Origin: Siphonodentalium dalli
Taxonomy: Eukaryota > Mollusca > Scaphopoda > Gadilida > Siphonodentaliidae
Length of the DNA stretch: 64,000 nucleotides
Assembly (NCBI GenBank): GCA_032622095.1
Contig: CP136061.1
Location: 87,102,983-87,166,982, forward strand
Reading direction: 5' to 3'
This document shows positions 18,859 to 35,141 of this stretch, piece by piece. Below the pieces are notes generated by a model, which worked only from the letters and a program-made list of their open reading frames with translations, was not told the origin of the DNA and made no database searches. Numbering within the stretch: position 1 is the first letter of the stretch; the number at the start of each line of letters is the position of its first letter. The position numbers were made by a program, and so were the translations under genes.

Positions 18859-19103
18859 TATTTTACAAAATTCACCAATGATGCAGCTGGGTTTATGTAA
18901 TTATTTCTGCAAAGAACTCTCTTTTTCAATTATTTCCTGATAAATCCATAATTTTAACACTCATGTGTGCACATATAGTGCACATTGTTTCAGTGCAGAT
19001 TTAAAAAAAGATACCTCCATGGAAGCTACCGGTATAGCTGTATCAGTGTTTACTCAGATCACCACCGATTAACGTTGGATGGTTTACTCAATGACATGTC
19101 ATG

Positions 19104-19569
19104 AGTAGTAATGGGGGGCACTATGGCCCAGTACCCCCCAGTGGGGGGCACTATGGCCCAGTACCCCCCAGTGGGGGGCACTATGGCCCAGTACCCCCCA
19201 GTGGGGGGCACTATGGCCCAGTACCCCCCAGTGGGGGGCACTATGGCCCAGTATCGAATACTGGACCATAGATCGTCCAGTATTCGATACTGGGCCATAG
19301 TGCCCCCCAGTGGGGGCACTATGGCCCAGTATCGAATACTGGACGATCTATGGTCCAGTATTCGATACTGGGCCATAGTGCCCCCCACTGGGGGGTACTG
19401 GGCCATAGTGCCCCCCACTGGGGGGTACTGGGCCATAGTGCCCCACTGGGGGGTACTGGGCCATAGTGCCCCCACTGATGGGTACTGGGCCATAGTTCCC
19501 CCCCTGAGGATAGATATTCCTGTCATTGATGTGATATTTCTGATCGGAAAAAATGAAAATGGACTTAGA
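19104..19569. repeat. Left TIR of the Polinton, palindromic 30-bp tandem units
   Basis: Five units of 30 bp (core GGGGGGCACTATGGCCCAGT followed by ACCCCCC) lead into a central inverted block with CAGTATCGAATACTGG. Units then run in the opposite orientation, followed by about 65 bp of unique sequence ending GGACTTAGA. The TIR is therefore itself a hairpin-forming palindrome. It differs from the right TIR by about two single-base indels. The long ORFs reading through it on both strands are repeat artefacts, since 30 is divisible by three. Confidence 0.93.
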
Positions 19570-19684
19570 ATTATTTTTTTTCAAAAGGAAAATCTCACTT
19601 TGGAAAATATCAATTAGCAATCAAGAGTTTTTCTTTTCGAATATTTGGTGGCCCTGAAAAGGGCCGTTTTATTTTTGTTATAGT
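19570..19684. other. TIR-to-gene spacer
   Basis: T-rich sequence that contains the 3' end signals of the first minus-strand gene. The left edge of the duplicated cassette lies near 19,613. Confidence 0.5.
19650..19665 (-). terminator. Histone-type 3' stem-loop, gene 1
   Basis: On the minus strand this reads GGCCCTTTTCAGGGCC followed by ACCA. It is a 6-bp stem with loop UUUC, fitting the metazoan histone mRNA consensus GGYYYU-HHUH-ARRRCC. It lies 19 nt after the stop codon of the minus gene. A purine-rich tract, AAAAGAAAAA (plus-strand 19,625-19,639), follows about 11 nt downstream, like a histone downstream element. Confidence 0.8.
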
Positions 19685-20152
19685 TTAGAATCCGCCACAT
19701 TGAACTTCTTTGTTCGCCAAAACTTCAATTGATTTGTCTCCTCGCCTCATCCATATTTCGCATTCACAATAATGCTCGTGGCAAACGTGTGGGATCCACA
19801 CTAGAGTTATTGATGACTTGAATCTTGGTGTTGATTTGTAGCCGCCTTTGGTAGCATCAAACATGACGATAGGTCGCTGTATAACAGTCGCCGCTAATTC
19901 AACCATCAATCTTGATTCAGCCAAAAGTGGTGTGCGCCGTAAATCTTGTGCCGACGCACCAAGTTCGTCACTCTCTGCGTAGTACAGGTCAACTGCCGCA
20001 TCTCTCAGAACCATCCATCCATCGGTCGTCCCGTAAACCGCAACGCTGAGTGCCCTCCAAAACAGAGATATTTCTTCGCCGCCGCACACTGCTTTACAGT
20101 ATACCCCCTGTACCATTATCTCGTCAAGATCTGTTATGTTTACAGCAGTCAT
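19685..20152 (-). CDS. OTU-like protein with substituted catalytic cysteine (putative)
   Basis: 155 residues. The pattern SLFWRALSVAVYG (29-41), a LRDAAVDL helix (49-56), an ELAATVIQRPIVMFD strand (85-99) and a late HxHY (125-128) resembles the OTU cysteine-protease fold, in which a DGxC-LFRAL helix carries the catalytic Cys and a late HY the His. Ser29 sits where Cys is expected, so activity is doubtful. OTU proteins remove ubiquitin; any such role here is inference from a motif-level match. The start ATG lies at the conserved edge of the bidirectional promoter, about 45 nt from a TATATG box. It diverges from the gene at 20,776 and ends in a histone-type stem-loop. Confidence 0.6.
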   Translation of the reverse strand: MTAVNITDLDEIMVQGVYCKAVCGGEEISLFWRALSVAVYGTTDGWMVLRDAAVDLYYAESDELGASAQDLRRTPLLAESRLMVELAATVIQRPIVMFDATKGGYKSTPRFKSSITLVWIPHVCHEHYCECEIWMRRGDKSIEVLANKEVQCGGF

Positions 20153-20775
20153 CTTTGAATGTAGAATAAGTCAGAAGATCCGTCTTGAACATATATTACG
20201 ATTGTGCGGGCGGTAGAGAAAGCACATAATACTTTGACGTTAAAAATGACAAATGCTTCTTGACGTTGTGTTTCTTTACAGTGCATTATCTGTAGTTTTC
20301 ACTATTTCGATATGTTATAGATTAAATTCATGATAGTATATGCAATTAATTAAGATGTTTTAACATATGAATTCATCTTCGTTCATAAACGATGACCAAG
20401 TAAAGTTATCGATTGTAATGATGAAGAAAAATGTTCAGTATGTTTTCTTGTGTTCAGTTTTATGTATAAAATATGTACATCTCCAAAAACAAAACTAGAA
20501 AAACATTCCATATTTTCCTAACGAGGTAACAAATATATCAATCATGTGTACCAAATAATAGATAATGATCTAACGAAATAAAAAACATTTGTTTGATCGC
20601 TATGCAATAATGATCAAGAAAAATATGAATGCTGATCCGTCTCTGAAAAAACACAATGCCAGGAAACATTTGTCAATTTTAACGTCAATGCGACATGTGA
20701 TTTCATTGACGCCCGTGTCAAATGTATAAAAATATTTTCGAATTTGATCAACGTTACATTGCATTGCTATCAAAG
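20153..20775. promoter_or_regulatory. Bidirectional promoter A with symmetric arms
   Basis: A TATAAAAAT box at 20,725 lies about 50 nt before the plus-gene ATG. In the minus direction a TATATG box near 20,191-20,197 lies about 45 nt before the other ATG. The outer 60-90 bp on each side are inverted copies of one another (GGGCGGTAGAGAAA, TTGACGTTAA and TGACAAATG words). The central 390 bp is AT-rich. The region is nearly identical to promoter B. Confidence 0.75.
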
Positions 20776-21264
20776 ATGGATCCGTTAACAGAATTTCTTC
20801 AGAGTGAGATATACAGTAATCCTGTTGTACAGAATACATATGCGGCACCACAGTCAACAGGCCAAGCTAATACGACAATGACTATAGGTGGAGATACACT
20901 CATTTTAAAAGCGATTTTAGATGAACTGAGATGTCTTCGCAGGGATATTGACGTGAAAACACAAGTAACGCATCAAGAAGTAAAAGTGAATCTTCGTTTC
21001 GTTGCAGAAGAGATAGATATACCAATCAGGGTTCATGATGTTCAGAAATCGAAAGAACAGAAACAGATCAAAAAAGAAAAAATATTGGCTGCGAAAGAAA
21101 AAGAACCTAAAAGTATCATGAAGCCTTCTACTGAGACAAAAGTCAGATTTCGTCTTCCTTGTAAAGAATCTAAAGATACAGAGAAAAGTGATGAATTCGC
21201 AAAAGCTATTGGTTCTCATGGGAAAGATATGTCAAGATATAAGAAAAACACAAAACGATGTTAA
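20776..21264 (+). CDS. Polinton accessory protein, unknown, coiled/charged
   Basis: 162 residues starting MDPLTEFLQSE. The in-frame ATG at 20,722 lies upstream of the TATA box and cannot be used if that box is real, so the start is set at 20,776. The N-terminal half is polar with a predicted helix (LKAILDELRCLRRDI). The C-terminal half is highly basic and acidic by turns (KSKEQKQIKKEKILAAKEKE), suggesting coiled coil or disorder. No family recognised. The gene is divergent from the OTU-like gene and ends in a histone-type stem-loop 22 nt after the stop. A regulatory or host-interaction role is only a guess from its place among accessory genes. Confidence 0.75.
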   Translation: MDPLTEFLQSEIYSNPVVQNTYAAPQSTGQANTTMTIGGDTLILKAILDELRCLRRDIDVKTQVTHQEVKVNLRFVAEEIDIPIRVHDVQKSKEQKQIKKEKILAAKEKEPKSIMKPSTETKVRFRLPCKESKDTEKSDEFAKAIGSHGKDMSRYKKNTKRC

Positions 21265-21286
21265 AGTCAGATGATAATTTTAAAAC

Positions 21287-21302
21287 GGCCCTTTTCAGGG
21301 CC
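21287..21302 (+). terminator. Histone-type 3' stem-loop, gene 2
   Basis: GGCCCTTTTCAGGGCC, preceded by AAAAC and followed by ACACACA, sits 22 nt after the stop codon. Stem and UUUC loop are identical to the others. The downstream sequence CCCAAAAGGTTACTC is shared with gene 4 and could be the U7-pairing element. Confidence 0.8.
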
Positions 21303-21371
21303 ACACACATTTCCCAAAAGGTTACTCTTTCATTGCTGAAAAAATCAAAAACACGATTGTTCAATTTATAT

Positions 21372-21377
21372 TTTATT
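21372..21377 (-). terminator. Orphan AATAAA (minus strand)
   Basis: This polyA signal has no minus-strand gene upstream of it. It lies in the block homologous to the 3' end of the zinc-knuckle gene and appears to be a relic of the cassette duplication. Confidence 0.5.
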
Positions 21378-21513
21378 CAACAACAAATATTTGCAAGTAT
21401 ATTTTGTTTTAAATTATTCGTGGCGTGATTTTTTCAAAACAAAACATAGGGTACAAAGAACATTATTAGTTATTAAGCAATGCTAAAAGTTTTTCTTTTT
21501 GAAAAAATTGGTT

Positions 21514-21529
21514 GGTCCTGAAAAGGACC
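21514..21529 (-). terminator. Histone-type 3' stem-loop, gene 3, distal copy
   Basis: On the minus strand this reads GGTCCTTTTCAGGACC followed by AACCA. Compared with the other stems one pair has changed from C-G to T-A on both sides, so pairing is kept. The UUUC loop is unchanged. A purine tract, AAAAAGAAAAAC (plus-strand 21,489-21,501), follows. Confidence 0.8.
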
Positions 21530-21541
21530 GTTTTTGTTTTT

Positions 21542-21557
21542 GGCCCTGAAAAGGGCC
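21542..21557 (-). terminator. Histone-type 3' stem-loop, gene 3, proximal copy
   Basis: On the minus strand this reads GGCCCTTTTCAGGGCC, 13 nt after the stop codon of the 62-codon gene. It is followed by AAAAAC rather than ACCCA, and a second stem-loop lies 12 nt further on. This tandem arrangement is unusual. Confidence 0.75.
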
Positions 21558-21570
21558 GTTTTGTATGGCA

Positions 21571-21759
21571 TCAAAGTTCACGCCACGATTTTCTTTTGAG
21601 ACTTTTGCTTTTGTTCCAACGCTGTTGTTTTTTGCATATTTGCATAACCAGTTTTGCACTGGCGGTTACTTCTTTTGCGTGTTCGCCCCGCATTATCTGG
21701 GGTGTTAGCCCTATCGTTCCTCTTAGTATAGACATCAACGGTTCGGGGGTTTCGGACAT
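21571..21759 (-). CDS. Short accessory ORF of cassette B, unknown
   Basis: 62 residues (MSETPEPLMS..., basic C-terminus KSKSLKRKSWREL). It is annotated because its ATG occupies exactly the position of the OTU-like gene's ATG in cassette A relative to the shared promoter (CATCTTTGAATG on the plus strand at both), and its stop is followed by two histone-type stem-loops. An overlapping frame at 21,578-21,838 encodes a more basic 86-residue product, but its ATG would lie inside the promoter arm. No family recognised. It could be a decayed remnant. Confidence 0.5.
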   Translation of the reverse strand: MSETPEPLMSILRGTIGLTPQIMRGEHAKEVTASAKLVMQICKKQQRWNKSKSLKRKSWREL

Positions 21760-22374
21760 CTTTGAATGCAGAATAAAAATTGTTCACGGCCGTGTTTGAA
21801 CATATATTACGATTGCGCGGGCGGTAGAGAAAGCACATGTCGCATTGACGTTAAAATGACAAATGCTCCCTGACGTTGTGTTTCTTTTCAGTGCATTATC
21901 TGTTAGTTTCACCATTTCGATATGATATAGATTAAATTCATGATAGTATATGCAATTAATTAAGATATTTTAACATATGAATTCATCTTCGTTCATAAAC
22001 GATGACCAAGTAAAGTTATCGATTGTAATGATGAAGAAAAATGTTCAGTATGTTTTCTTGTGTTCAGTTTTATGTATAAAATATGTACATCTCCAAAAAC
22101 AAAACTAGAAAAACATTCCATATTTTCCTAACGAGGTAACAAATATATCAATCATGTGTACCAAATAATAGATAATGATCTAACGAAATAAAAAACATTT
22201 GTTTGATCGCTATGCAATAATGATCAAGAAAAATATGAATGCTGATCCGTCTCTGAAAAAACACAACGCCAGGAAACATTTGTCAATTTTAACGTCAATG
22301 CGACATGTGATTTCTCTACCGCCCGTGTCAAATGTATAAAAATATTTTCACTTTTTCAGTGAACTTCATTCATT
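21760..22374. promoter_or_regulatory. Bidirectional promoter B with symmetric arms
   Basis: A TATAAA box at 22,335 lies 40 nt before the plus ATG. The arms 21,815-21,882 and 22,261-22,326 are inverted copies with few mismatches (words CGGGCGGTAGAGAAA, CACATGTCGCATTGACGTT and TGACAAATG). GCGCGGGC at about 21,816 resembles part of an E2F-type site, a weak suggestion of S-phase control. The central sequence matches promoter A. Confidence 0.75.
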
Positions 22375-22725
22375 ATGCCGTCTCTAAAGAAATTTTTCAA
22401 GAAGCTATGGAGGAAGAGAGATTCGTCAGAGGAGACGAAAATCAGAACCTATAGGAAATGGCAGGATTCTCCTGAACAAAAGGTGGTGCAGAAACAGATG
22501 TTAACAGATTTTCTGGCTCGGCGACGACCATCGGCTGAAGTATGTGATCAAGAACCAAGCAATCTTGATCTCGTGGAGATCTTGTCACAGATCTCGAAGA
22601 AAGATCTGTGCAATGCAGCAATTGACAGCTTCGCTCAGGCTGCTGCGGCGCACAGATCAAACCCTACTTGGTCTGTGACAATTAATCCCAACGGGATATA
22701 TCCTGATTTGGCAGAATTTTTATGA
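22375..22725 (+). CDS. Polinton accessory protein, unknown
   Basis: 116 residues. The N-terminus MPSLKKFFKKLWRKRD is a strongly basic amphipathic helix that could bind membrane or nucleic acid. A polar middle follows, then an acidic-helical part (NLDLVEILSQISKKDLCNAA) and a C-terminus ending YPDLAEFL. No family recognised. The start is the first ATG after the TATA box. The gene is divergent from the 62-codon ORF and carries a histone-type stem-loop 18 nt after its stop. Confidence 0.7.
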   Translation: MPSLKKFFKKLWRKRDSSEETKIRTYRKWQDSPEQKVVQKQMLTDFLARRRPSAEVCDQEPSNLDLVEILSQISKKDLCNAAIDSFAQAAAAHRSNPTWSVTINPNGIYPDLAEFL

Positions 22726-22743
22726 ATTCTGGAAAAGAAAAAC

Positions 22744-22759
22744 GGCCCTTTTCAGGGCC
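22744..22759 (+). terminator. Histone-type 3' stem-loop, gene 4
   Basis: GGCCCTTTTCAGGGCC preceded by AAAAAC and followed by ACCCACA. Relative to the classical metazoan histone signal it differs by one compensated base pair, and the ACCCA flank is exact. The downstream sequence CCCCAAAAAGGTTACTC is conserved with gene 2. This is the best match of the five. Confidence 0.85.
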
Positions 22760-22833
22760 ACCCACATTCCCCAAAAAGGTTACTCTTTCATAGCTGAAAA
22801 AAACAAAACAAAACACGATTGTTCAATTCATAA

Positions 22834-22839
22834 TTTATT
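22834..22839 (-). terminator. AATAAA polyA signal of the zinc-knuckle gene
   Basis: TTTATT on the plus strand lies about 30 nt beyond the stop of the minus-strand gene. It shows that this gene uses ordinary polyadenylation, unlike its four left-hand neighbours. Confidence 0.6.
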
Positions 22840-22870
22840 CACAATATAATTTTCAAATGTTTGTATCGAT

Positions 22871-23446
22871 TCATTTATCTGTTTTTGGAATGTAGAATTG
22901 TCTCAGCTTCTTTTTCTTGGAAGTTTTCTTGGAATTTTCAAAATCTGGATGCTTATCTTCAGATTTGTTCTGTGAATCATTCGTAGGATCAACAGGTCGG
23001 GGTTGTTTGAAAACATCTGATGTTGTAGACATCTCTTCAGTTTTGATAACTGCATTTTGTTCTTGTATTGTTACTGCTTGTAGACTTTTTTGTATAGTTT
23101 TCACATTTTTTTTGTCGTCGAAATCTGTTTTACATTGGAAGGACCAATGGGAGTCTTGTCCGCATTTGTAACAGTAACCATATGGTGGTTTCCAATTTTT
23201 ATCAGCTTTGTTTTTCTCTTTTTTCTCTTGCCATTGCATTTTGTTACAAAATTTAAACAAATCAGTAGAGATCTGTCTCAATTCGACAAGATTATCTTGA
23301 ATTTTTCTAGTCTGTAGTAGTGTAGATTCTTCTTTATGCAGCTCAATATAGCTCTCTTCAATAACTGCAGGCCTTGGTCTTTTTCTAACAATATCTTCTT
23401 CGCTGGCGGAGTCGTCTGAAACAGGTCTTTTGATTCTCTTAAACAT
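22871..23446 (-). CDS. CCHC zinc-knuckle protein sharing its N-terminus with the polymerase
   Basis: 191 residues. A retroviral-type zinc knuckle CX2CX4HX4C is formed by C92, C95, H100 and C105 (core CYKCGQDSHWSFQC). Such knuckles bind single-stranded nucleic acid, so packaging or replication roles are possible. Residues 1-32 (MFKRIKRPVSDD..., with a RKRPRP basic patch that could be a nuclear signal) are identical to the start of the polymerase, because both genes lie in the arms of an inverted repeat. The C-terminus is Lys-rich. Gag-like knuckles are not part of the core Polinton gene set I know, so this is an accessory gene. Confidence 0.8.
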   Translation of the reverse strand: MFKRIKRPVSDDSASEEDIVRKRPRPAVIEESYIELHKEESTLLQTRKIQDNLVELRQISTDLFKFCNKMQWQEKKEKNKADKNWKPPYGYCYKCGQDSHWSFQCKTDFDDKKNVKTIQKSLQAVTIQEQNAVIKTEEMSTTSDVFKQPRPVDPTNDSQNKSEDKHPDFENSKKTSKKKKLRQFYIPKTDK

Positions 23447-23752
23447 TTTTGTCTTGAGTTTTTGTCAGCAAAAAATATTGCGACTGGCTTCTTCGGAGTT
23501 GAAGTGTAAAGTGTATAATTACACAATTTTAACACCTGCTTTTATAGCAGTGACTGCTATAAAAGCAAGTGTAAAATTGTGTAATTATACACTTTACACT
23601 TCAACTCCGAAGAAGCCAGTCGCAATATTTTTTGCTGACAAAAACTCAAGACAAAAATGTTTAAGAGAATCAAAAGACCTGTTTCAGACGACTCCGCCAG
23701 CGAAGAAGATATTGTTAGAAAAAGACCAAGGCCTGCAGTTATTGAAGAGAGC
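23351..23752. repeat. Inverted repeat, 200-bp arms, divergent promoter plus shared coding start
   Basis: Arms 23,351-23,551 and 23,553-23,752 differ by about one substitution and one indel. Each contains a TATAAAAGC box close to the centre, about 95 bp of leader and the first 32 codons of a gene. Identity stops at the same codon on both sides. The centre CTGCTATAAAAGC is mirrored around a single base, so the two TATA boxes lie only about 10 bp apart. Confidence 0.9.
23447..23656. promoter_or_regulatory. Symmetric divergent promoter of the zinc-knuckle and polymerase genes
   Basis: TATAAAA at 23,557-23,563 faces right and its mirror image at 23,541-23,546 faces left. Leaders of about 95 nt follow in both directions and contain ACACTTTACACTTC and ACTCCGAAGAAGCC. 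The sequence is unrelated to promoters A and B, consistent with a second expression class. Confidence 0.75.
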
Positions 23753-26700
23753 GAAATGGAAACTGATGAGGCAGAAAGTGAAGAGAGCGATATGGAAACT
23801 GATGAGGCAGAAAGTGAAGAGAGCGATATGGAAACTGATGAGGCAGAAAGTGAAGAGAGCGATATGGAAACTGATGGAGGCGAAAGTGAAGAAAGTTCTA
23901 GTGATGGTCAGATTGGACGCGGTCGAAGACAGAATAGAGAAATTGGTGGGAAGAGAAAGAGAAGTCTGGCTAGAGAGCGTGTTGTGTTCAATCCAACAAA
24001 ATATTTCAAATTGGAGCTGAACTCGGAGAAATTTTCCAGAAAATTTAAATCAGCATCACGACAATTTGGTGTGAAATTCGAGAAATTTACAGATCCAATC
24101 GAAAACATTCCAGAGATATTTGAGAAGTTGACAGAAGAATTGAAACAGAAATGTTCAGCAAATGAGAAGACAAGAATCAGAGTTACGATAAATCATCCAG
24201 GACTTGATATGAACATTTTCATTCCATTCACAAAAGCCAGTGAATTGAATGGTGAGACACTCATGGATAATATTCAAAATGTGGTTCAATCAAATGCAGA
24301 CTTTACAATTCATGACGGTGCACTCAATTTCGAAATCTTCGTTACAGATATTCCGGAAGGTGGTACACGACACTCACTACATTATGGACCATTTGCAGAC
24401 AAGAACAAGCTTACAAAAGTGAAAAGAAGTATTGTCCGGATTGAAAATGCTGATGATGTTATGTGTATGGCAAGATCTATTGTCGTCGGAATGTGTAAGG
24501 CAGATAGTGATGGATCTGCGTGCTGGTCAAAGAAATGGAAAAGAATAAGACAATCAATATACACAGCACAAACAGATGCAGCAAAAAATCTACTCAACCG
24601 TGCTGGTATTCCACACGATACAGTTTGCAGTATCAATGAGTTCCACAAGATTCAAGAAATATTGTATCCAGAATATGTTGTGAAAATTCACAATGAATTT
24701 GCTGGCGCTGGATTTCTATTTGAACCTGCAGAAATGTGTTCGGAGAGCAAATGTGTACACATCTACTACAACAACAATCACTTCGACACCATAACATCAA
24801 TCAAAGGATTTCTAGGCACCAGCTACTACTGCGAATTCTGTGACATTGGATTCAAAAGTCGTGGCGATCATCGATGCAGATTTGTTTGTGCATGCTGGTC
24901 ATTGACACAGTGTAATTTCACAAATTTGGTGAAGTGTAGAACGTGTCGACGATCATTCAGAAGTAAATCTTGTTTCGACAACCATTTGAAGACGGAAGGA
25001 AAACAGAAAAGAAAAATATGTGATTTGGTTCAACTATGCAACATTTGTGATGAAGAATTTCTCATCAATAAATCAAACAGACATATATGTGCGGGGTTGA
25101 AGAAATGCAAACATTGCAAAGAAATCGTTGAAGCAGATCACAGGTGCTACATTCCAAAATATGAATCACCGGAAAAGAAACCTGCAAAGATTCCATATGT
25201 ATTCTTTGACTTTGAATGCAGACAAGACACAGGTGTTCATATTCCAAACTTCTGTGTTGCACATACCGCTTGTGGAGATTGCATGTGCAAACCAATCGAA
25301 GAAAAATGTGAAACATGCGGACCGGATTCCAGAGAATTTGTATTCAAGGGTGACAACGTTTTAACAGACTTCACAAACTGGTTATTCCATCAAGATCACA
25401 AAGGATGTGTTGCAATAGCACATAATGCTCAGGGGTACGATGCACAGTTTCTACTTCAAGCACTCATACAAAGTGGAATTCATAAACCAGAACTGATCAT
25501 GAATGGAAACAAAATTCTCAGTTTAAAATGCAACAGCGTGAAAGTTATTGATTCTCTGAGTTTTCTGATGATGCCGCTTTCAAAATTTCCACAAACTTTT
25601 CAGCTGAATGAGATGGCAAAAGGACACTTTCCACATTGGGCGAATTCACCAAAGTTTCAAAATTACATTGGACATTACTTGGCTTCTGATTACTACAAAC
25701 CAGACATGATGAGCGTGGAAAATCGAGAGAAATTCTTTGAATGGTACAATGAGAAAATAGAAAATTATGCGATATTCAACTTCCAAGAAGAGATAGAGAA
25801 GTACTGCAAATCAGACGTGGATATTCTTCGCCGTGGATGTGGAAAATTCAGGAAATACATATTGGAAACAGAACAGATTGACCCGTTCATTGAGTCAATA
25901 ACATTGGCACAAGTTTGCAATTTGGCATGGAGGAAGAATTCAATGCCAGAGAAAACAATTGGAATCATTCCAGATGGTGGATACCCATGTGCTAAAAACT
26001 ATTCCATGAAAGCGATACGTTGGCTTCAACATATATCATTGTCACGTATGATAACAATCAAGCATGCTTTGAATGGAGGAGAAATCAAGATTGGTGGACA
26101 CTACGTCGATGGATATGAGGAAGCCACAAGAACAGTTTTTGAGATGAATGGATGTCTGTTTCATGGATGTCCAAAATGTTACAACAACAGACAATACAAG
26201 AATCCCTATACGATGCTCACCATGGAAGAATTATATACAAGAACCCAACAGAAGAAAGATGAACTGGAAAGTCTTGGTTACAGAGTTGAATCAATTTGGG
26301 AGCATCAGATCGACGAAAGAATGAAATCGGATGTGAAATTCAAACAACAAATGGAATCTTTCTACAAACATCGAGACCCTATTTTGCCAAGAGAAGCATT
26401 GTTTGGTGGACGTACAAATGCCATCAAATTGTACGAGGAAATTGATCAAGATTCCACAAAAGAAATCAAGTTCATCGATGTGTGTTCGTTGTATCCATTT
26501 TGCAACAAATATAAATTCTACCCTGTTGGACATCCAGAAATTTTGAGCCAAGAGCAGATCGATCAAGAACACATTAGAGACTATGCGGGGCTTGTTAAAT
26601 GTACAATTTTACCATCATCGAAATTGTATATTCCAGTTCTACCGATTCATTGTAACAAGAAAATGGTTTTTACTCTGTGCAACACTTGTGCCATCAATGA

Positions 26701-27730
26701 GAACGAGGCATGTAACCATTCAGAAGAAGATCGAGCTATAACCGGAGTGTGGACCACGCCAGAATTATTCAAAGCAATGGATGTTGGCTACAAAATACTT
26801 GATGTGTACCAAATTTGGCATTGGACAGATTGGACAGATGAAATATACAAATCCTATATCGATAAACATCTAAAGATCAAACAGGAATGTAGTGGTTATC
26901 CATTTGGTGTTGAGACAGAAGAACAGAAACAAAAGTTTGTACAGGATTATTATGCAGCTGAGGGTATAAATTTGGAGAACATCGAGAAGAATCCAGGAAA
27001 ACGTCAAATATCTAAAATTATGATTAATTGTATATGGGGTAAGAATGCACAAAGAAATCTTATGTCAAAAACAGAGTATGTGGATAAACCATCACGTTAT
27101 TTTGAATTGCTTACTAGTAACAATATAATTGTTCAAAATGTTACACTTCTTGATGGTGACAAATTCATTCTGGTAAATTATGTTGACATCTTAGATAATA
27201 TTGAACCTCATCATTCAGCAAATGTTGTTGTTGCTTCTTTTGTTACAGCGTATGCAAGATTACAATTGTATAAAGTTTTAGAAAAACTTGGAGATAGAGT
27301 GCTGTATTTTGATACAGACAGCTGTATGTATGTCAGTGATCCATCAAAGAAGAACATCAAAACTATCGAAGGAAGATTGGGGAAATGGAGCGACGAACAT
27401 CCAGATGCAAAGATTGTCAAATTTGTTGGACTTGGGCCAAAGAACTACGGATATGAATACATCAAAGATGGGGTAAGATACACCAAATGTAAGGTAAAAG
27501 GTATCACTCTTGATTACAGCACAAGTCAAAAAGTTAATTTTGAAACAATGGTACAATGTGTTAATGATCGTGAAAATTTCAAAACTGTTGTTGAGTATCC
27601 TTCCAGAATTAAAAGACAAAAGAACCATCAATTGATTAGTGAGTGTCAAACCAAAACTTTCAGATCGGTGTACACAAAACGAAAACTCGTCAATGGTATT
27701 CATACATACCCATACGGATGGAGATGTTGA
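23657..27730 (+). CDS. PolB: Protein-primed family B DNA polymerase (pPolB)
   Basis: 1357 residues, full length. Residues 32-79 hold four 12-residue acidic repeats (SDMETDEAESEE). A Cys/His-rich zone with many CxxC pairs spans about 390-505. The 3'-5' exonuclease starts with FFDFEC (D518, E520); ExoII is HNAQGYD and ExoIII is YCKSDVD. Polymerase motif A is D941-VCSLYP, motif B is SKIMINCIWGK, motif C is YFDTDS (D1219-T-D1221), followed by KCKVKG. These motifs mark an active protein-primed polymerase that copies the linear element. The start is the ATG 95 nt after the TATA box, within the inverted repeat. The coding frame continues to RWC and ends 16 nt before the next ATG. Confidence 0.96.
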   Translation: MFKRIKRPVSDDSASEEDIVRKRPRPAVIEESEMETDEAESEESDMETDEAESEESDMETDEAESEESDMETDGGESEESSSDGQIGRGRRQNREIGGKRKRSLARERVVFNPTKYFKLELNSEKFSRKFKSASRQFGVKFEKFTDPIENIPEIFEKLTEELKQKCSANEKTRIRVTINHPGLDMNIFIPFTKASELNGETLMDNIQNVVQSNADFTIHDGALNFEIFVTDIPEGGTRHSLHYGPFADKNKLTKVKRSIVRIENADDVMCMARSIVVGMCKADSDGSACWSKKWKRIRQSIYTAQTDAAKNLLNRAGIPHDTVCSINEFHKIQEILYPEYVVKIHNEFAGAGFLFEPAEMCSESKCVHIYYNNNHFDTITSIKGFLGTSYYCEFCDIGFKSRGDHRCRFVCACWSLTQCNFTNLVKCRTCRRSFRSKSCFDNHLKTEGKQKRKICDLVQLCNICDEEFLINKSNRHICAGLKKCKHCKEIVEADHRCYIPKYESPEKKPAKIPYVFFDFECRQDTGVHIPNFCVAHTACGDCMCKPIEEKCETCGPDSREFVFKGDNVLTDFTNWLFHQDHKGCVAIAHNAQGYDAQFLLQALIQSGIHKPELIMNGNKILSLKCNSVKVIDSLSFLMMPLSKFPQTFQLNEMAKGHFPHWANSPKFQNYIGHYLASDYYKPDMMSVENREKFFEWYNEKIENYAIFNFQEEIEKYCKSDVDILRRGCGKFRKYILETEQIDPFIESITLAQVCNLAWRKNSMPEKTIGIIPDGGYPCAKNYSMKAIRWLQHISLSRMITIKHALNGGEIKIGGHYVDGYEEATRTVFEMNGCLFHGCPKCYNNRQYKNPYTMLTMEELYTRTQQKKDELESLGYRVESIWEHQIDERMKSDVKFKQQMESFYKHRDPILPREALFGGRTNAIKLYEEIDQDSTKEIKFIDVCSLYPFCNKYKFYPVGHPEILSQEQIDQEHIRDYAGLVKCTILPSSKLYIPVLPIHCNKKMVFTLCNTCAINENEACNHSEEDRAITGVWTTPELFKAMDVGYKILDVYQIWHWTDWTDEIYKSYIDKHLKIKQECSGYPFGVETEEQKQKFVQDYYAAEGINLENIEKNPGKRQISKIMINCIWGKNAQRNLMSKTEYVDKPSRYFELLTSNNIIVQNVTLLDGDKFILVNYVDILDNIEPHHSANVVVASFVTAYARLQLYKVLEKLGDRVLYFDTDSCMYVSDPSKKNIKTIEGRLGKWSDEHPDAKIVKFVGLGPKNYGYEYIKDGVRYTKCKVKGITLDYSTSQKVNFETMVQCVNDRENFKTVVEYPSRIKRQKNHQLISECQTKTFRSVYTKRKLVNGIHTYPYGWRC
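23750..23893 (+). repeat. 36-bp coding minisatellite in the polymerase N-terminus
   Basis: Four units of 36 bp encode the acidic 12-residue repeat. The array begins exactly where the inverted repeat ends, so the polymerase-specific sequence starts with it. Confidence 0.85.
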
Positions 27731-27746
27731 GTCATTTCATGTCAAG

Positions 27747-28343
27747 ATGTTGGCAGGAGTAGTACCTCCAGAAATTGCTGAGAAGATTTATGGATATTTG
27801 GTGGCACAGTCAACGCTTATTCCAGAGATAAAGAAGGAATTACAAGAAGTCTGGTTTGAAAGAGAAAAGAAAGCAATACTACGATGCTGTGATGTCGGCG
27901 AATGTTTACAGAGATTGGCCTATCTTGAGTCAAGTATATCTTCTCATTTCTCTCAAAAATATATTGAATCATTTATTAAATTCAAAACATTTTTTCTCAT
28001 TGAAAAAATATCTGATTTTTGGACATTTGGTGCTGATCAACACCATTTAGATATAGATTTAGGAACTTTTGATGAACATGACTATATTCATTATACAAAG
28101 TATGATGATCATTTACCTCTTGATGGGGGAACTTTTGAATCAGTTCCTAGGATCTATGGGTATTTGTTAACAAAAAAAATGTCAACATATGCAAAAATTA
28201 AAAACATTTTGGGGGATGATTTTTTTATTTACAGAACAAAGCACAGAAGAATAGAAGACTATGATGATTGGATTATTGAAATGTATGGAAATATTTACAG
28301 CTTTGGAGATTTCGGTTTAAAAACTAAATTCACACGTCGTTAA
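27747..28343 (+). CDS. Polinton protein of unknown function downstream of pPolB
   Basis: 198 residues from MLAGVVPPEIAEKIYGYL. Upstream in-frame ATGs exist at 27,639 and 27,693, but they overlap the polymerase frame, and the product before MLAG reads like out-of-frame polymerase. The N-terminal PPEIAEKIYGYL helix recalls F-box or ankyrin-tail starts but is too short to call. The rest is rich in aromatic and acidic residues (YDDHLPLDGGTF, RRIEDYDDWIIEMYG). No family recognised. The position between polymerase and ATPase suggests a conserved element gene rather than cargo. Confidence 0.75.
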   Translation: MLAGVVPPEIAEKIYGYLVAQSTLIPEIKKELQEVWFEREKKAILRCCDVGECLQRLAYLESSISSHFSQKYIESFIKFKTFFLIEKISDFWTFGADQHHLDIDLGTFDEHDYIHYTKYDDHLPLDGGTFESVPRIYGYLLTKKMSTYAKIKNILGDDFFIYRTKHRRIEDYDDWIIEMYGNIYSFGDFGLKTKFTRR

Positions 28344-28376
28344 GTTCACTCTCTGATTAGACATCAAAGTGACAAC

Positions 28377-29027
28377 ATGGAAGAATCTTTACTTTTCCAA
28401 CATCCGTGTAATTTCTTTATCAGCGGACCTAGTGGATCAGGTAAAACAGAATTTGTTAAAAAAGTTATTGAATTTAAACACGATTTATTCCAAACACCAC
28501 CAAAGAAAATAGTTTGGTGTTACAAAGAATGGCAAGACACATACAATCGTATAAAAGAAATTGATAACGTTAAGTTTATCGATGGTATTCCAGACGATGA
28601 TGAGGAAATTGTATCAGATAAATCATTTCCTCATCTTGTTGTTTTCGATGACATGATGGGGGAACAAGATGAAGACAAAATAATGCTTTGGTTTACTAGA
28701 AAAGGTCATCATCGAAATGCTTCAATAATTTACATTACTCAAAACATGTTCCAAAAATCAAAAAGTAGCAGAACTATAAGTTTGAATGCACACTACATGG
28801 TTTTATTTCAAAGCGTTCGAGATAAAAATCAAATAAAAGTTTTGGCTCATCAAATGCAAACCAATCATTTGAAACAAGCATACGAAGATGCAACTTCAAT
28901 AAATCATGGATATATTTTAGTAGATTTTCATCCTAGAACAGAAAATTATTTGCGAATTAGAACTGATATTTTCCATAAATGGTTGACAGCTAATGACCGA
29001 GGTCCTGTCATATATTCAAAAGTATAA
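28377..29027 (+). CDS. FtsK/HerA-type genome-packaging ATPase
   Basis: 216 residues. Walker A GPSGSGKT is at 17-24, Walker B HLVVFDD at 86-92, and a sensor-like IIYITQN motif is near 123-129. Length and motif order match the A32-like packaging ATPases of Polintons and related viruses, which pump DNA into preformed capsids. It follows the previous gene by 33 nt on the same strand. All key residues are present. Confidence 0.93.
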   Translation: MEESLLFQHPCNFFISGPSGSGKTEFVKKVIEFKHDLFQTPPKKIVWCYKEWQDTYNRIKEIDNVKFIDGIPDDDEEIVSDKSFPHLVVFDDMMGEQDEDKIMLWFTRKGHHRNASIIYITQNMFQKSKSSRTISLNAHYMVLFQSVRDKNQIKVLAHQMQTNHLKQAYEDATSINHGYILVDFHPRTENYLRIRTDIFHKWLTANDRGPVIYSKV

Positions 29028-29061
29028 ATTCAGTTGTTGTTATTTTTTTCATTTTAGAACC

Positions 29062-29649
29062 ATGTCGTCCACCGAGATGTTTAGTCGTGATGAACTGTCA
29101 CAAATTATAAATTTCTTCACTTTTGCAGCTGAATTATTTCTTGAAAATGATTGGAAATTACCATCACAGACAAAAAAGTTTTTTCAGAGAAATAAAAATG
29201 TTCTTAAAAAAATCTCTGATCGATCAACTGATATGGAAACAAAACGCAAATTAATTTTACAACGAGGTGGTAGTGGGTTTCTTGGAGGAGTTTTAATTAG
29301 AAGTCTTTTGAAAAATTCATTTGAACAAACTGGTAGACAATCTAAAAGTAAATCAAAGGTTTCTCCAAAACGTTCAAAGATTACTCGGAAGCAAACACAA
29401 CAAAGAGGTAATCAAAAAGAATCTAAACGTAAAACAAAGCTTTCTCTAAATCATTCAAAGTTTACACCGATGCAAACTCAACAAAATCAACATTCTAAAT
29501 TTACACCTATACCTTCTCAGCAGAACCCTCAACATCAACCGTTACAAAAAAAACCAGTTATTGATCTTGAATTTTCAAAATTTATGCCGTTGTCTGATGC
29601 ATCGAAATCTGCATTCGAAGCTTTAGAATGGTTCAATCCGAAAAGATAA
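29062..29649 (+). CDS. Basic Gln/Lys-rich Polinton protein with Gly-Gly motif
   Basis: 195 residues from MSSTEMFSRDEL. The ATG at 28,993 overlaps the ATPase end, and its extra residues look non-coding. A helical N-terminus is followed by RKLILQRGGSGFLGG (62-76) and a hydrophobic stretch, then a long low-complexity region rich in Lys, Gln, Ser and Pro with repeats like HSKFTPMQTQQN and HSKFTPIPSQQN. The Gly-rich site resembles maturation sites cut by adenain-type proteases (inference), which would fit a core or scaffold protein. Unrecognised otherwise. Confidence 0.75.
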   Translation: MSSTEMFSRDELSQIINFFTFAAELFLENDWKLPSQTKKFFQRNKNVLKKISDRSTDMETKRKLILQRGGSGFLGGVLIRSLLKNSFEQTGRQSKSKSKVSPKRSKITRKQTQQRGNQKESKRKTKLSLNHSKFTPMQTQQNQHSKFTPIPSQQNPQHQPLQKKPVIDLEFSKFMPLSDASKSAFEALEWFNPKR

Positions 29650-29705
29650 AAGATGAAACATATAATTTTTCTGCTCATTTTGAGACAACTACTTAGACTG
29701 TGAAG

Positions 29706-30068
29706 ATGCCTTCAAAAACTAAGAGCCGGAAAGCACCGCTGATAAAAAAATATGGTGAGTTGATTGTTGCAATGAGTAAAGTTCCATCTGCATATAAAAA
29801 GAAAATGATCAACGATGCTCCGAAACAAGTGATGGATTGCATTTCAGAATGTTGTCAAAATCTTTTAAAAGGTAATGTAAAACTGAATGAAGCTCAGAAC
29901 CGCAAGTTACATTCGAAGCGTAAACATATCAGATATCTTGCAGACAAGAACAAACCTTTGCAACAAAAGAAGAAAATTTTGAATCAAAAAGGTGGCTTTT
30001 TACCATTATTATTTCTTGCTCCATTGATTAGCAAAACATTAGGTGCAGTTGTTAAAAATATTTTGTAA
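29706..30068 (+). CDS. Small basic Polinton protein with hydrophobic C-terminus
   Basis: 120 residues from MPSKTKSRKAP; the codon two before it is GTG, so the ATG at 29,706 is taken. A basic helical body (KLHSKRKHIRYLADKNK) is followed by KKKILNQKGG and a hydrophobic tail (FLPLLFLAPLISKTLG). The K-x-IL-x-Q-K/R-GG motif plus hydrophobic segment is shared with the upstream gene. Proteins of this layout recur in Polintons as far as I recall. They could be DNA-condensing or capsid-associated proteins processed at GG. Function not established. Confidence 0.8.
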   Translation: MPSKTKSRKAPLIKKYGELIVAMSKVPSAYKKKMINDAPKQVMDCISECCQNLLKGNVKLNEAQNRKLHSKRKHIRYLADKNKPLQQKKKILNQKGGFLPLLFLAPLISKTLGAVVKNIL

Positions 30069-30088
30069 AAACTAAATCTCAAATAAAT

Positions 30089-30796
30089 ATGAAGAAAATG
30101 GTTATTGTACCATTCAGAATGTTGGAAGATTTCAAACAATGGGAAATGTCAGAAATGAATAAACCTCAATTACCTCCTGATCCTGCAATTTCAAATGTTT
30201 CAGATTCTTACAAAGAATTGAAATCAGTTTATGATAAAAATATTTCTGAATCAGAAAAGTCACAGTTATTTGGAGAAAATTTGTACAAATTGAAAACTTC
30301 ACAAAAATCTTTAAATTCAAAATTCAGATTACCTGAACAAAAGTTATCTGAAAACTTTGGGAAAATGAGTGACCATATATTGGAAAGTGTGCCATCTAAA
30401 TTTCGTGGTAAAGCACAACAAATTTTATCATTGTTGTCAACTAATCCTAAACTTAGATGGGATGATCGTGGACAATTAATTTATGGAACAGAAACAGTTA
30501 CTGGATCAAATATAATTGATTTGATAAACGATGTTGTTCGTCACCGAAAAGGTTTTAACCCAGTTGGTTATGAAACATTCCTACGTGGATTGGGGGAACT
30601 TAATATACCACAAGATTATGTAGGTAACAGGGATCGATGGCTGTGGATGCAAAGACATTTAAAAGGTCACACTGGTGATGAGTTTCATACACCTCATGCA
30701 ACTCCTATCAGTGGCAAGTCAAGAAAACGTTCAGTTGATATTTTAACACCAGAAACCAGAAAAACTATTTTGAAAGGATGGTCCTCACTTACATAA
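30089..30796 (+). CDS. Conserved Polinton-associated protein, function unknown
   Basis: 235 residues from MKKMVIVPFRMLEDF. A coiled N-terminal half is followed by a compact block ILESVPSKFRGKAQQILSLL (about 115-134), then NPKLRWDDRGQLIYGTE, an IIDLINDVVRHRK helix and LNIPQDYVGNRDRW. I recall similar proteins, always uncharacterised, in invertebrate Polintons; this is memory, not a search. The C-terminus overlaps the integrase start by 19 nt in another frame, so the two are closely linked in expression. Confidence 0.8.
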   Translation: MKKMVIVPFRMLEDFKQWEMSEMNKPQLPPDPAISNVSDSYKELKSVYDKNISESEKSQLFGENLYKLKTSQKSLNSKFRLPEQKLSENFGKMSDHILESVPSKFRGKAQQILSLLSTNPKLRWDDRGQLIYGTETVTGSNIIDLINDVVRHRKGFNPVGYETFLRGLGELNIPQDYVGNRDRWLWMQRHLKGHTGDEFHTPHATPISGKSRKRSVDILTPETRKTILKGWSSLT

Positions 30797-31872
30797 AATT
30801 TGACAAACTTCTAACTGAAATTTACTACAATCCAAAAGAAGTTGGTGGTTTCAGTGGAGCAAATCAACTTTTTAAAAATGCAAAAGAAACAAATAACAAA
30901 ATTAAACTTTCAGATGTTAAAAAATGGTTACAATGGCAAAAAACATATACTTTGCACAAACCAATTGTTCGGAAATTTCGCAGACGTAAAACTATTGTTG
31001 CAGGAATTGATATTCAGTGGCAAGCTGATCTGGCAGATTTGCAAACTTTGCAAAAGCACAATGACAATTACAGATATTTACTTTGTGTTATTGATGTGTT
31101 CTCAAAATTTGCATGGGTTGAAAAAATTAAAGATAAAACTGGTAAAACTTTAGTTAAAACATTTCAGAAAATTCTAAAATCATCAAAACGAAAACCAGCT
31201 TCATTTCAATCTGACAAAGGTTCAGAATTCAAAAATAAATTATTTTTACAATTTTTGAAATCTAAGAAAATTCATTTTTTCACAACAGAGAATCCAGAGA
31301 CAAAAGCAAGTATAGTTGAACGTTTTCAACGGACATTGAAAACAAAGATGTGGAAATATTTTACACATAATCAAACTTTGAAATACGTTGATGTTTTGCA
31401 CGATTTTGTGAATTCTTACAACAAAAGTTTTCATAGAAGTATTAAGATGGCACCAGTTTTAGTAACTCGAGAAAATGAAATTGAAGTTTCCAGAAATCTT
31501 TATGGAAAGTTAAAAACGAAAAAAGATAAGATGTTGAAAGTTGGAGATTTTGTTAGAATAAATAAAACAAAGAGAACTTTTGATAAAGGATATCTTCCAA
31601 ATTGGACAAAAGAAATTTTCAAAATTAGTAGAGTTTGTAAAAGTACACCATTAACTTACAAATTAGTAGATTTAGATGGTGAAAACATCGCAGGATCATT
31701 TTATGGTAAAGAAATTCAACATATAAAAGATAATAAAGTTTACGAAATTGAATCAGTTGTTGGTAAACGTTCAAGAAAAGTTGCTGGTAAATCAGTTAGA
31801 GAAATTAAAGTTCATTGGGCTGGTTATCCTAAAAAATTTGACAGTTGGATACCTGCCACAAATTTGGTATAA
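30778..31872 (+). CDS. INT: Retroviral-type integrase with C-terminal chromodomain
   Basis: 364 residues. The rve core carries the DDE triad D84 (QADLADL), D146 (QSDKGSEF) and E181 (SIVERFQ), with 34 residues between the last two. The fold inserts element ends into host DNA. Residues about 322-364 form a chromodomain (YEIESVVGKR, then VHWAGYPKKFDSWIP), which in other integrases directs insertion to modified histones. An obvious HHCC zinc domain is not seen at the N-terminus. The start overlaps the preceding gene by 19 nt. Confidence 0.95.
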   Translation: MVLTYIKFDKLLTEIYYNPKEVGGFSGANQLFKNAKETNNKIKLSDVKKWLQWQKTYTLHKPIVRKFRRRKTIVAGIDIQWQADLADLQTLQKHNDNYRYLLCVIDVFSKFAWVEKIKDKTGKTLVKTFQKILKSSKRKPASFQSDKGSEFKNKLFLQFLKSKKIHFFTTENPETKASIVERFQRTLKTKMWKYFTHNQTLKYVDVLHDFVNSYNKSFHRSIKMAPVLVTRENEIEVSRNLYGKLKTKKDKMLKVGDFVRINKTKRTFDKGYLPNWTKEIFKISRVCKSTPLTYKLVDLDGENIAGSFYGKEIQHIKDNKVYEIESVVGKRSRKVAGKSVREIKVHWAGYPKKFDSWIPATNLV

Positions 31873-31882
31873 AACTTTTAAC

Positions 31883-32146
31883 ATGTCTCAAAATGGTTCA
31901 GTTGGTCTCGATGCTCCATCACAATTTCAAATCTGTGGAGAAAAAATTGCAAAAAATCAAGTAACATATTTTACACAAATTATTATAATTGTTGGTATAA
32001 TCGCTACAGCAATTGTTCATTTAAGTTTACAAAGTGAAAATAACGAACTGTGGTTAATTTTACTCAGTAGTTCTTTGGGGTACATTTTACCAACACCGCG
32101 TTTGAAATATTTGAAAAATCAGTCGGCAGAAATTTTGAAAGTATGA
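31883..32146 (+). CDS. Small two-helix membrane protein of Polintons
   Basis: 87 residues from MSQNGSVGLDAPSQF. Two hydrophobic segments are visible: TQIIIIVGIIATAIVHLSL (about 31-49) and LWLILLSSSLGYILPTP (about 57-73). The ATG lies 10 nt after the integrase stop; the longer upstream frame is out-of-frame integrase. Its stop overlaps the next start (ATGA). Two-TM proteins of this size sit between INT and the penton gene in other Polintons as I recall. A membrane-penetration or virion role is inference. Confidence 0.8.
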   Translation: MSQNGSVGLDAPSQFQICGEKIAKNQVTYFTQIIIIVGIIATAIVHLSLQSENNELWLILLSSSLGYILPTPRLKYLKNQSAEILKV

Positions 32147-32994
32147 ATCCTTTCTACATTACAATTCCGAGCGACAGTTCGATGGTAATGTATCCAAACA
32201 ATACTCAATGTTGTTTTACTGTACAATTACCAAAACCAGTTCAAATTGATAAAGAAAAATGGGAAGTTGCATTAGCCGAACTGATAACACCTTCAGAAAC
32301 ATACAATGTTACAGGGGATTCGTGTAAATTCAATTTGATTACAACTGATGCAATATTACTGTCTGTTCTTCAAAATCGTTTTGAAGAAAAGATATTTAAG
32401 AGACCTGATGGCGTTCATGCACTTGAAATACAGATACAAAATGGTTCGTATACCTCTGCGACAGATTTAGTTGATACAATGCAAGATGTAATTGATGAAA
32501 CACTTGGAGAAGCAATGCAAAACGAATACGGATTTCACATCGGGTACTCAAAAGGTACAAAACGTGTGAAAATTATTCGCAAGAGTTTAAGTAACACAAA
32601 ACTAGGAATTGAATTACCACAATGTCTTTTGCACAAGTTGGGTTACAAAACTGAAAACGCTTCTGAAGATTTTTATTCAAATAATAGATTTCCGTTTGGT
32701 GTAGATTTGAATGTTGGTCATAATCTAATGTTTGTTTATTCTGATATTGCCGATTACACATTTGTTGGAAATGTTGAAGTACAAATTTTACGAGTTGTTT
32801 CTTTCAGAAGTAAAAGAGATATCGACGGATTACATGTAAAACATGAATTTTTAAATTTACATTATGTTCCAGTTTCAAAGTCATACTTTGACAAAATTAG
32901 TGTAAATATAAGTGGCGACACAGGAAAATCAATTCAGTTTATCGGTGGTAAGTCTTTGGTGAAGCTACATTTCAGAAAACGAGAGGAGTTCTAA
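32143..32994 (+). CDS. mCP: Minor capsid (penton-like) protein
   Basis: 283 residues. The N-terminus MNPFYITIPSDSSMVMYPNN, followed by a FTVQLPKPVQIDKEKWEVALAE strand pattern, is typical of the single jelly-roll minor capsid protein of Polintons, which would form the vertices. Position directly upstream of the pVI-like and MCP genes supports this. Beta-rich throughout, no signal peptide. It overlaps the TM gene by 4 nt. Confidence 0.8.
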   Translation: MNPFYITIPSDSSMVMYPNNTQCCFTVQLPKPVQIDKEKWEVALAELITPSETYNVTGDSCKFNLITTDAILLSVLQNRFEEKIFKRPDGVHALEIQIQNGSYTSATDLVDTMQDVIDETLGEAMQNEYGFHIGYSKGTKRVKIIRKSLSNTKLGIELPQCLLHKLGYKTENASEDFYSNNRFPFGVDLNVGHNLMFVYSDIADYTFVGNVEVQILRVVSFRSKRDIDGLHVKHEFLNLHYVPVSKSYFDKISVNISGDTGKSIQFIGGKSLVKLHFRKREEF

Positions 32995-32999
32995 AAACA

Positions 33000-33374
33000 A
33001 TGTTCCCCGTGTATAGAGGCGTACCACGGCAATATGGTAATGGTATTGGTTCAATTTTCAAATCAGTTATGAGATCTGCTATACCATTTCTAAAACCGCT
33101 TGGTCGGACAGCTTTACAACTTGCGAAAAAACACACTTTTGGTGTTGCAGATGAAATTATTAATCAAGGTAAAAGTCCGAAAGAAGCGTTGATGTCTGAA
33201 GGTAAAAAAGCTTTAAAATCTTTTGGCACACAAGCTAAAAATCAAATTTTGAACTCGAGAAAAAAACCTAGAAAAAGAGTAGCGACTTCAAAAATGAATC
33301 ATTCAGCTGTCAAACGCCGAAAAAGTCAGTCGAAAAATCATCCTAGCAGTCGAGCTCTTGATATTTTTGATTAA
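33000..33374 (+). CDS. Small basic capsid-associated protein, pVI-like (putative)
   Basis: 124 residues. The N-terminus contains QYGNGIGSIFKSVMRSAIPF, an amphipathic helix behind a GNGIG site that resembles an adenain cleavage site. The rest is basic (RKKPRKRVATSK, KRRKSQSKN). Adenovirus pVI has the same plan (cleaved leader, lytic helix, basic part) and is encoded near hexon, as here, 3 nt before MCP. The assignment rests on layout and context, not on an alignment. Confidence 0.65.
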   Translation: MFPVYRGVPRQYGNGIGSIFKSVMRSAIPFLKPLGRTALQLAKKHTFGVADEIINQGKSPKEALMSEGKKALKSFGTQAKNQILNSRKKPRKRVATSKMNHSAVKRRKSQSKNHPSSRALDIFD

Positions 33375-33376
33375 TC

Positions 33377-34681: not shown

Positions 34682-34682
34682 G

Positions 34683-35141
34683 ATGGAGTTCACAACACAG
34701 CTATGGAACTACTATGAAGAATACCGACGTTCACAACACGTTGCTCCGAGATTAAAACTGATCTTGGACACACTCAACAACGCTACGATTGAAGAACTAC
34801 AAGAAATTATTCGCAAGGAAGTGTCAGCAAACTGTGAAGGATGTAAAATAGAACATCCTAGTCAACGTGAACATGTTCTGTGTTTGTTCTCTACAACTGA
34901 TGATTGGACAAACCAGTTTATCGACTTAGCGCTGATTAAAATTGACATATACAATGTTATGGAAAGATGGTTCCCGAAGCTGATGGAGTTAAACCCACAC
35001 TGCAAGGAGAAGTTCGAAGCATACCTTATGTGGGATCATCTGAGAAACAGTTTGGAGCTCAACCGCAAAAAATTCGATGCAGAGTGGACTCTGATGTGGT
35101 CACAGCGAGTCAAAGAGAATTACAACGATGCAGACAGCTGA
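34683..35141 (+). CDS. Polinton-conserved protein with CxxC..H..H..C motif
   Basis: 152 residues. A motif CEGCKIEHPSQREHVLCL (about 50-67) could bind zinc (C, C, H, H, C). The remainder is helical. I recall this motif in proteins encoded between MCP and protease in other Polintons, without known function. It overlaps the protease start by 14 nt. Possibly a late regulatory or assembly factor; that is inference. Confidence 0.8.
   Translation: MEFTTQLWNYYEEYRRSQHVAPRLKLILDTLNNATIEELQEIIRKEVSANCEGCKIEHPSQREHVLCLFSTTDDWTNQFIDLALIKIDIYNVMERWFPKLMELNPHCKEKFEAYLMWDHLRNSLELNRKKFDAEWTLMWSQRVKENYNDADS

Follow-up and report, generated by a model that had tools for sequence, protein, structure and literature searches.

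The 3′ ends of replication-dependent histone mRNAs in animals are formed at a hairpin to which SLBP binds, together with a downstream element that is recognised by the U7 small nuclear ribonucleoprotein (snRNP), as set out in the accessible part of PMC5636114. Cleavage of the histone pre-mRNA is placed 5 and 7 nucleotides (nt) past the stem-loop in the available portion of PMC6303110, where ACCCACA is the string that holds the major and minor cleavage sites. Replication-dependent histone mRNAs with this stem-loop have been reported from the bivalve Lucina pectinata, with purine-rich elements for only some of its histone genes (PMC6210712, in the excerpt available). Here we describe a Polinton/Maverick element in a 64,000-nt stretch of contig CP136061.1 of the scaphopod mollusc Siphonodentalium dalli (hereafter the window), whose accessory genes, judging from sequence, probably use the histone 3′-end pathway of the host, with SLBP- and U7-dependent, non-polyadenylated ends. 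The occurrence of stem-loop histone mRNAs in Lucina pectinata implies that the machinery of this pathway should be present in the host.

The accessory region holds four open reading frames (ORFs), here called genes 1 to 4, and five hairpins. Bit scores are those of the Rfam covariance model RF00032 (Histone3, the stem-loop of the histone 3′ untranslated region), which has a curated gathering score of 34 bits and a model length of 46.

19685..20152, minus strand: gene 1, accessory ORF of 155 amino acids (aa) without a known domain; codon usage favours the true frame over the other five
19650..19665, minus strand: stem-loop of gene 1; 41.8 bits over 19670-19624; 19 nt past the stop
20776..21264, plus strand: gene 2, accessory ORF of 162 aa with LPCKE at residue 127; codon usage favours the true frame over the other five
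21287..21302, plus strand: stem-loop of gene 2; 40.1 bits over 21282-21326; 22 nt past the stop
21571..21759, minus strand: gene 3, accessory ORF of 62 aa, questionable as a protein-coding gene; start context ATTCAAAGATG in common with gene 1
21542..21557, minus strand: proximal stem-loop of gene 3; 22.2 bits, short of the gathering score; 13 nt past the stop
21514..21529, minus strand: distal stem-loop of gene 3; 37.1 bits over 21534-21488; 41 nt past the stop; one compensated pair
22375..22725, plus strand: gene 4, accessory ORF of 116 aa without a known domain; codon usage favours the true frame by a small margin
22744..22759, plus strand: stem-loop of gene 4; 42.6 bits over 22739-22784; 18 nt past the stop; followed by ACCCACA

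An earlier note on this DNA had described five 16-nt hairpins and a fit to the histone stem-loop consensus. All five are present at the positions and on the strands it gave, and four of them match RF00032 over its whole length (positions 1-46 of 46) above the gathering score, with E values of 2.9×10−9 to 3.4×10−7. Nothing beyond these five hairpins is found with RF00032 at E≤5 in the 64-kb window, and within the element the matches occur only at the ends of accessory genes. The scatter of equal-scoring hairpins through the element, which the note had named as evidence against its proposal, was sought with the same model over the 64 kb and is absent. A 21-base consensus pattern gives a similar picture, with five matches in the window and none in 100 shuffles. 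Perfect hairpins with a 6-base-pair (bp) stem and a 4-nt loop number 49 in the window, and at least four G/C pairs are present in eight of these; in the interior of the element (19474-36047), the five described here are the only perfect hairpins of this kind with at least four G/C pairs.

The distance from the stop codon to the first hairpin is 19, 22, 13 and 18 nt for genes 1 to 4, respectively, and in all four ORFs the hairpin lies on the sense strand, which bears out the spacing of 13 to 22 nt that had been claimed. In the interior, 3.1% of the strand-positions fall 13-45 nt past the stop of an ATG-initiated ORF of at least 60 aa (32 ORFs), a figure that was not multiplied across the hairpins because their copies are linked to one another.

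The proximal hairpin of gene 3 (21542-21557, minus strand) is the one that fails the gathering score, with 22.2 bits and an E value of 0.12. Its 16 letters are identical to those of the stem-loops of genes 1, 2 and 4, yet it scores about 18-20 bits lower than these, and about 15 bits lower than the distal hairpin of gene 3, whose stem differs from the others in one pair. The low score is due presumably to flanks that misfit RF00032. This hairpin may thus serve as an internal control, in which the flanks and the downstream stretch would account for the difference in score. The five bases that follow the stem in the five hairpins are ACCAA, ACACA, AACCA, AAAAA and ACCCA, so that the earlier description of ACCA or ACCCA in three cases was loosely worded. 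An AAAA run about 13-18 nt past the stem is common to the four high-scoring hairpins, and the hairpin of gene 4 is followed by ACCCACA, identical to the cleavage-site string in the part of PMC6303110 cited above. The accessory gene ends resemble replication-dependent histone 3′ ends (RF00032) in their 6-bp stem with a loop of 4 nt, in the A-rich bases that precede the stem, the ACCA- or ACCCA-like bases that follow it and the downstream A-rich stretch, and also in the short distance from the stop, the lack of a well-placed poly(A) signal and the short single-ORF genes. They differ in that the genes are not histone genes and lie in a mobile element, and in that gene 3 has two tandem hairpins.

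Poly(A) signals were sought as AATAAA and ATTAAA only, within 700 nt past each stop. The sole signal of gene 1 is an AATAAA 12 nt past the stop, which is upstream of the hairpin. The first signal of gene 2 lies 508 nt past the stop, gene 3 has one 194 nt past the stop (about 137 nt beyond its distal hairpin), and none is found within this distance for gene 4. In all four genes, the 130 nt that follow the last hairpin are free of AATAAA and ATTAAA. An adjacent gene without a stem-loop provides an internal contrast.

22871..23446, minus strand: zinc-knuckle gene without a stem-loop; Pfam zf-CCHC_3 E 1e-4, below the cut-off

This zinc-knuckle gene has an AATAAA 32 nt past its stop, and the late gene cluster of the element likewise has an AATAAA downstream, at 35858. 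A well-placed AATAAA is thus missing from the hairpin genes and present in their zinc-knuckle neighbour and in the late cluster, so that, from the sequence, one element seems to use two kinds of 3′ end.

These observations suggest a mechanism in which each accessory primary transcript would end in a histone stem-loop to which host SLBP could bind, with the U7 snRNP recruited by the A-rich stretch that starts about 13-14 nt past the stem. Cleavage about 5 nt past the stem would then yield short, apparently intronless, non-polyadenylated accessory mRNAs, stable only during DNA replication. The result would be an S-phase-gated set of accessory genes, with the polymerase and late genes keeping ordinary poly(A) signals. 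SLBP binding, U7 cleavage and S-phase linkage of the accessory genes are what we infer from these features; the interpretation put forward in the earlier note is supported at the sequence level.

The four ORFs are arranged as two divergent pairs, each read from a shared promoter region.

20153..20775, unstranded: shared divergent promoter P1 of genes 1 and 2; internal inverted repeat; TATAAAA at 20725
21760..22374, unstranded: shared divergent promoter P2 of genes 3 and 4; like P1; TATAAAA at 22335

P1 and P2 align over 594 columns at 94% identity, and their centres are nearly identical; each also contains an inverted repeat of 70-75 nt (77% and 91%, respectively). The start-codon context CAAAGATG is common to genes 1, 2 and 3, and is not found at gene 4. 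The 3′ ends are also alike within strands, with 104 of 120 columns identical between genes 2 and 4 and 46 of 56 between genes 1 and 3; between plus- and minus-strand genes the 3′ alignment is confined to the hairpin and its near flank (22-65 nt). The coding regions of the two gene pairs show no similarity, and the four accessory proteins have no match to one another by blastp at E≤10. From its sequence, this arrangement looks like a duplicated cassette for expression. Such a cassette means that the five hairpins are not independent events, and they may count as a single acquisition. In the simplest history, the histone-type 3′ end was probably acquired once, an inverted duplication would have produced a divergent pair served by one promoter, and that pair would then have been duplicated in turn, with coding regions exchanged inside the conserved cassette. 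Bidirectional histone promoters that serve divergent pairs are described for human and yeast in the accessible text of PMC1794435. The Polinton pairs share with divergent histone gene pairs the back-to-back genes, the short common promoter and the stem-loop at each end. They differ in having no histone coding sequence and no CCAAT that could be found, and in that the pairs differ in coding content while sharing the cassette.

Several results weigh against use of the histone pathway by these genes. The compensated pair that the earlier note had read as a sign of RNA selection is indeed present; it is, however, one change in one of five sequences, which 107 of 500 shuffles equal, and it adds little to the case for such selection. 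Duplication and gene conversion could alone keep the hairpins alike, the centres of P1 and P2 being nearly identical. The promoters contain no TTTSSCGC and no CCAAT, and there is one loose G/C core, in P2 only. A duplex test with the 5′ end of human U7, which may differ from the U7 of the host, lends no support to pairing: the energies of the downstream stretches are ordinary, since 49-68% of the 40-mers of the element are at least as stable as those of the four high-scoring hairpins, and 98% are at least as stable as that of the fifth hairpin. Codon usage bears on whether the hairpins follow genes at all. A score trained on 12 core ORFs was compared over six frames, and in a leave-one-out control the true frame came first for all 12 core ORFs. 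The true frame also outscores the other five in genes 1, 2 and 4 and in the zinc-knuckle gene, with a small margin for gene 4, whose coding signature is only marginal. Gene 3 scores worse in its own frame than in two others and has no coding signature; it may be non-coding or decayed. Of the four genes counted in the earlier note, the 62-aa ORF is thus in doubt. Finally, RF00032 at E≤1 finds no match in five Polinton-like loci from metagenome-assembled genomes (MAGs; described below), a weak negative since these loci are partial and distant, and two stem-loop patterns have no match in the viral_contigs collection. The expectation that RF00032 would pick out these gene ends is borne out in this element, with four hairpins above the cut-off and only at accessory gene ends, and is not extended by those partial, distant relatives.

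The copying of the cassette bears on one alternative, that the end of a host histone gene was captured together with regulatory DNA and now lies idle, the mRNAs actually being polyadenylated. Recent copying would explain much of the likeness among the hairpin regions and promoters (104/120 and 46/56 columns, and 94% identity). Nonetheless, the 3′ likeness between plus- and minus-strand genes is confined to 22-65 nt at the hairpin and its near flank, the Rfam model is matched in the flank and downstream positions too, and in the four genes neither poly(A) signal occurs in the 130 nt that follow the last hairpin. We regard idle ends as rather unlikely. It is also conceivable that the hairpins serve SLBP in another way, in stability, translation or export, or that they act as termination or boundary hairpins, in either case without U7 cleavage. 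A boundary role would suit the two gaps in which genes converge, between gene 4 and the zinc-knuckle gene and between genes 2 and 3, both of which hold hairpins. Gene 1, however, still has a hairpin even though it faces only the terminal repeat, with its mechanical ORF of repeat units, and the end of the late cluster has no RF00032 match. The low score of the proximal hairpin of gene 3, and the lack of support for pairing in the test with human U7, would suit a role that does not involve U7; the AAAA run 13-18 nt past the stem in the four high-scoring hairpins speaks against it. On balance, such roles without U7 cleavage appear unlikely. Chance or an assembly artefact is very improbable: one copy of the element was examined, yet none of the 100 shuffles gives even one pattern match, the Rfam E values reach 2.9×10−9 to 3.4×10−7, and the hairpins all lie within 3.2 kb of an element that is otherwise coherent and whose terminal repeats match.

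The accessory proteins themselves give few leads. Genes 1 to 4 have no Pfam domain above the cut-off, no Pfam histone match at E≤0.1 and no match in PHROGs. None of 39 candidate proteins is a homologue of gene 1 at E≤1, and neither of two candidates is a homologue of gene 4 at that threshold; a PDB sequence search with gene 4 is likewise without a match. Several weak indications were set aside. For gene 1 these are a PDB sequence match to ribosomal protein L3 at 0.051, which is not trusted, an OTU-like impression that Pfam does not support, and a fold predicted without an alignment, which has a mean pLDDT (predicted local distance difference test) of 39.7 and was not used. For gene 2 they are a Pfam ASL_C match at 0.094, far below the cut-off, and a PDB sequence match at 0.0088 to a viral chemokine inhibitor, which falls in a lysine-rich stretch (residues 63-152) and is also not trusted.

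LxCxE is an Rb-binding motif, and the protein of gene 2 has one motif of this type (LPCKE, residue 127), the sole one in the 18 ORFs examined. A motif of this type arises by chance in 343 of 20,000 shuffles of the protein, and LPCKE is a lead and no more. A class of animal DNA virus genes, termed ‘oncoid’, is defined by short linear motifs in the accessible part of PMC11071296; gene 2 resembles these by its single LxCxE-type motif and has no further likeness to them. As a more tentative suggestion, which we hold to be possible and somewhat doubtful, an animal Polinton lineage might have placed an early-type gene set under S-phase control by means of histone 3′ ends in a swappable divergent-promoter cassette, perhaps with gene 2 pushing the cell into S phase.

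Among the papers listed by a full-text literature search, outside which most of the subscription literature lies, none is seen from its title and the start of its abstract to describe histone-type 3′ ends in Polintons, Mavericks or adintoviruses, which does not prove absence from print. Neither histone nor stem-loop is found in the accessible text of PMC11071308, and that of PMC11071296 mentions histone-like virus proteins and not stem-loops. The RNA family and the kind of host element are both known; their combination appears to be new. To our knowledge, use of the SLBP/U7 pathway by non-histone genes of a mobile element would be the first of its kind. If true, the histone 3′-end pathway would be open to parasites, and the accessory genes would report naturally on how SLBP and U7 act beyond histone mRNAs. 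There would also be a testable link between Polinton expression and the host cell cycle, with a bearing on when and where Polintons replicate. Were gene 2 to drive S phase, the element would itself help to bring about the conditions that stabilise its mRNAs.

The remainder of the element comprises the genes typical of its kind.

19101..36450, unstranded: Polinton/Maverick element, delimited by the outer ends of perfect terminal inverted repeat arms, with core genes and capsid homologues
23657..27730, plus strand: DNA polymerase B; Pfam DNA_pol_B_2 7.4e-39
28377..29027, plus strand: A32-type packaging ATPase; Pfam Pox_A32 1.3e-8
30778..31872, plus strand: integrase with chromodomain; Pfam rve 1.3e-12, Chromo 1.7e-5
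33377..34681, plus strand: major capsid protein; homologues in bivalves, without a Pfam match
35128..35601, plus strand: adenovirus-type C5 protease; Pfam Peptidase_C5 5e-4, just under the cut-off

The terminal inverted repeat arms (19101-19473 and 36078-36450) are 373 nt long and 100% complementary. By eye, no identical 6-bp flanks, as expected of a target-site duplication, are seen at the repeat ends. Polymerase, integrase and ATPase are above the Pfam cut-offs, with the protease just below. The capsid protein was named from what we take to be a likeness to Polinton capsid proteins, and a protein database search returned 1004 homologues at E≤0.001. Among the matches listed (the best 120 of 1004), the closest organism-named homologue is from Mercenaria mercenaria (63% identity), followed by homologues from oysters and from a MAG of a Thiodiazotropha symbiont. 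By its gene content and terminal inverted repeats, and with the capsid assigned through its bivalve homologues, the element is on sequence grounds a Polinton, as had been claimed earlier. The features it has in common with the Polintons/Mavericks and adintoviruses of animals are terminal inverted repeats, a chromodomain integrase, DNA polymerase B, a C5-type protease, an A32-type ATPase and a capsid protein, which in Polintons is of the double jelly-roll type.

A scan of the genome_contigs collection with a capsid alignment (A1, the capsid protein of the window and 37 homologues from the best 120 of 1004) gave the five Polinton-like loci mentioned above (L001-L005), which span 3.6-21 kb and have 24-41% capsid identity. 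Their animal-type capsid genes lie on contigs of symbiont and other bacterial MAGs, probably as host contamination. ORFs were annotated for L001 and L002; L001 begins in the polymerase gene, and its accessory region is missing. In viral_contigs, no relatives were found with the single capsid, the single integrase, capsid alignment A1, integrase alignment A3 or ATPase alignment A6. A few hundred bases past the capsid match of L002, a sub-threshold twister-P1 ribozyme match is present at 11740-11804 on the plus strand (28.9 bits, cut-off 67.2).

Other repeats were noted in the element of the window. The terminal repeats (19113-19473 and 36078-36439) hold 30-nt units (GGGGGGCACTATGGCCCAGTACCCCCCAGT) and a mirrored centre, such that each repeat can fold on itself. 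In-frame acidic 36-nt repeats lie near the start of the DNA polymerase ORF, at 23735-23914. Through a 189-nt inverted repeat of 98% identity (23343-23531 and 23572-23760), the zinc-knuckle and DNA polymerase genes diverge from one short promoter and have their first 32 amino acids in common; their build resembles that of the hairpin gene pairs.

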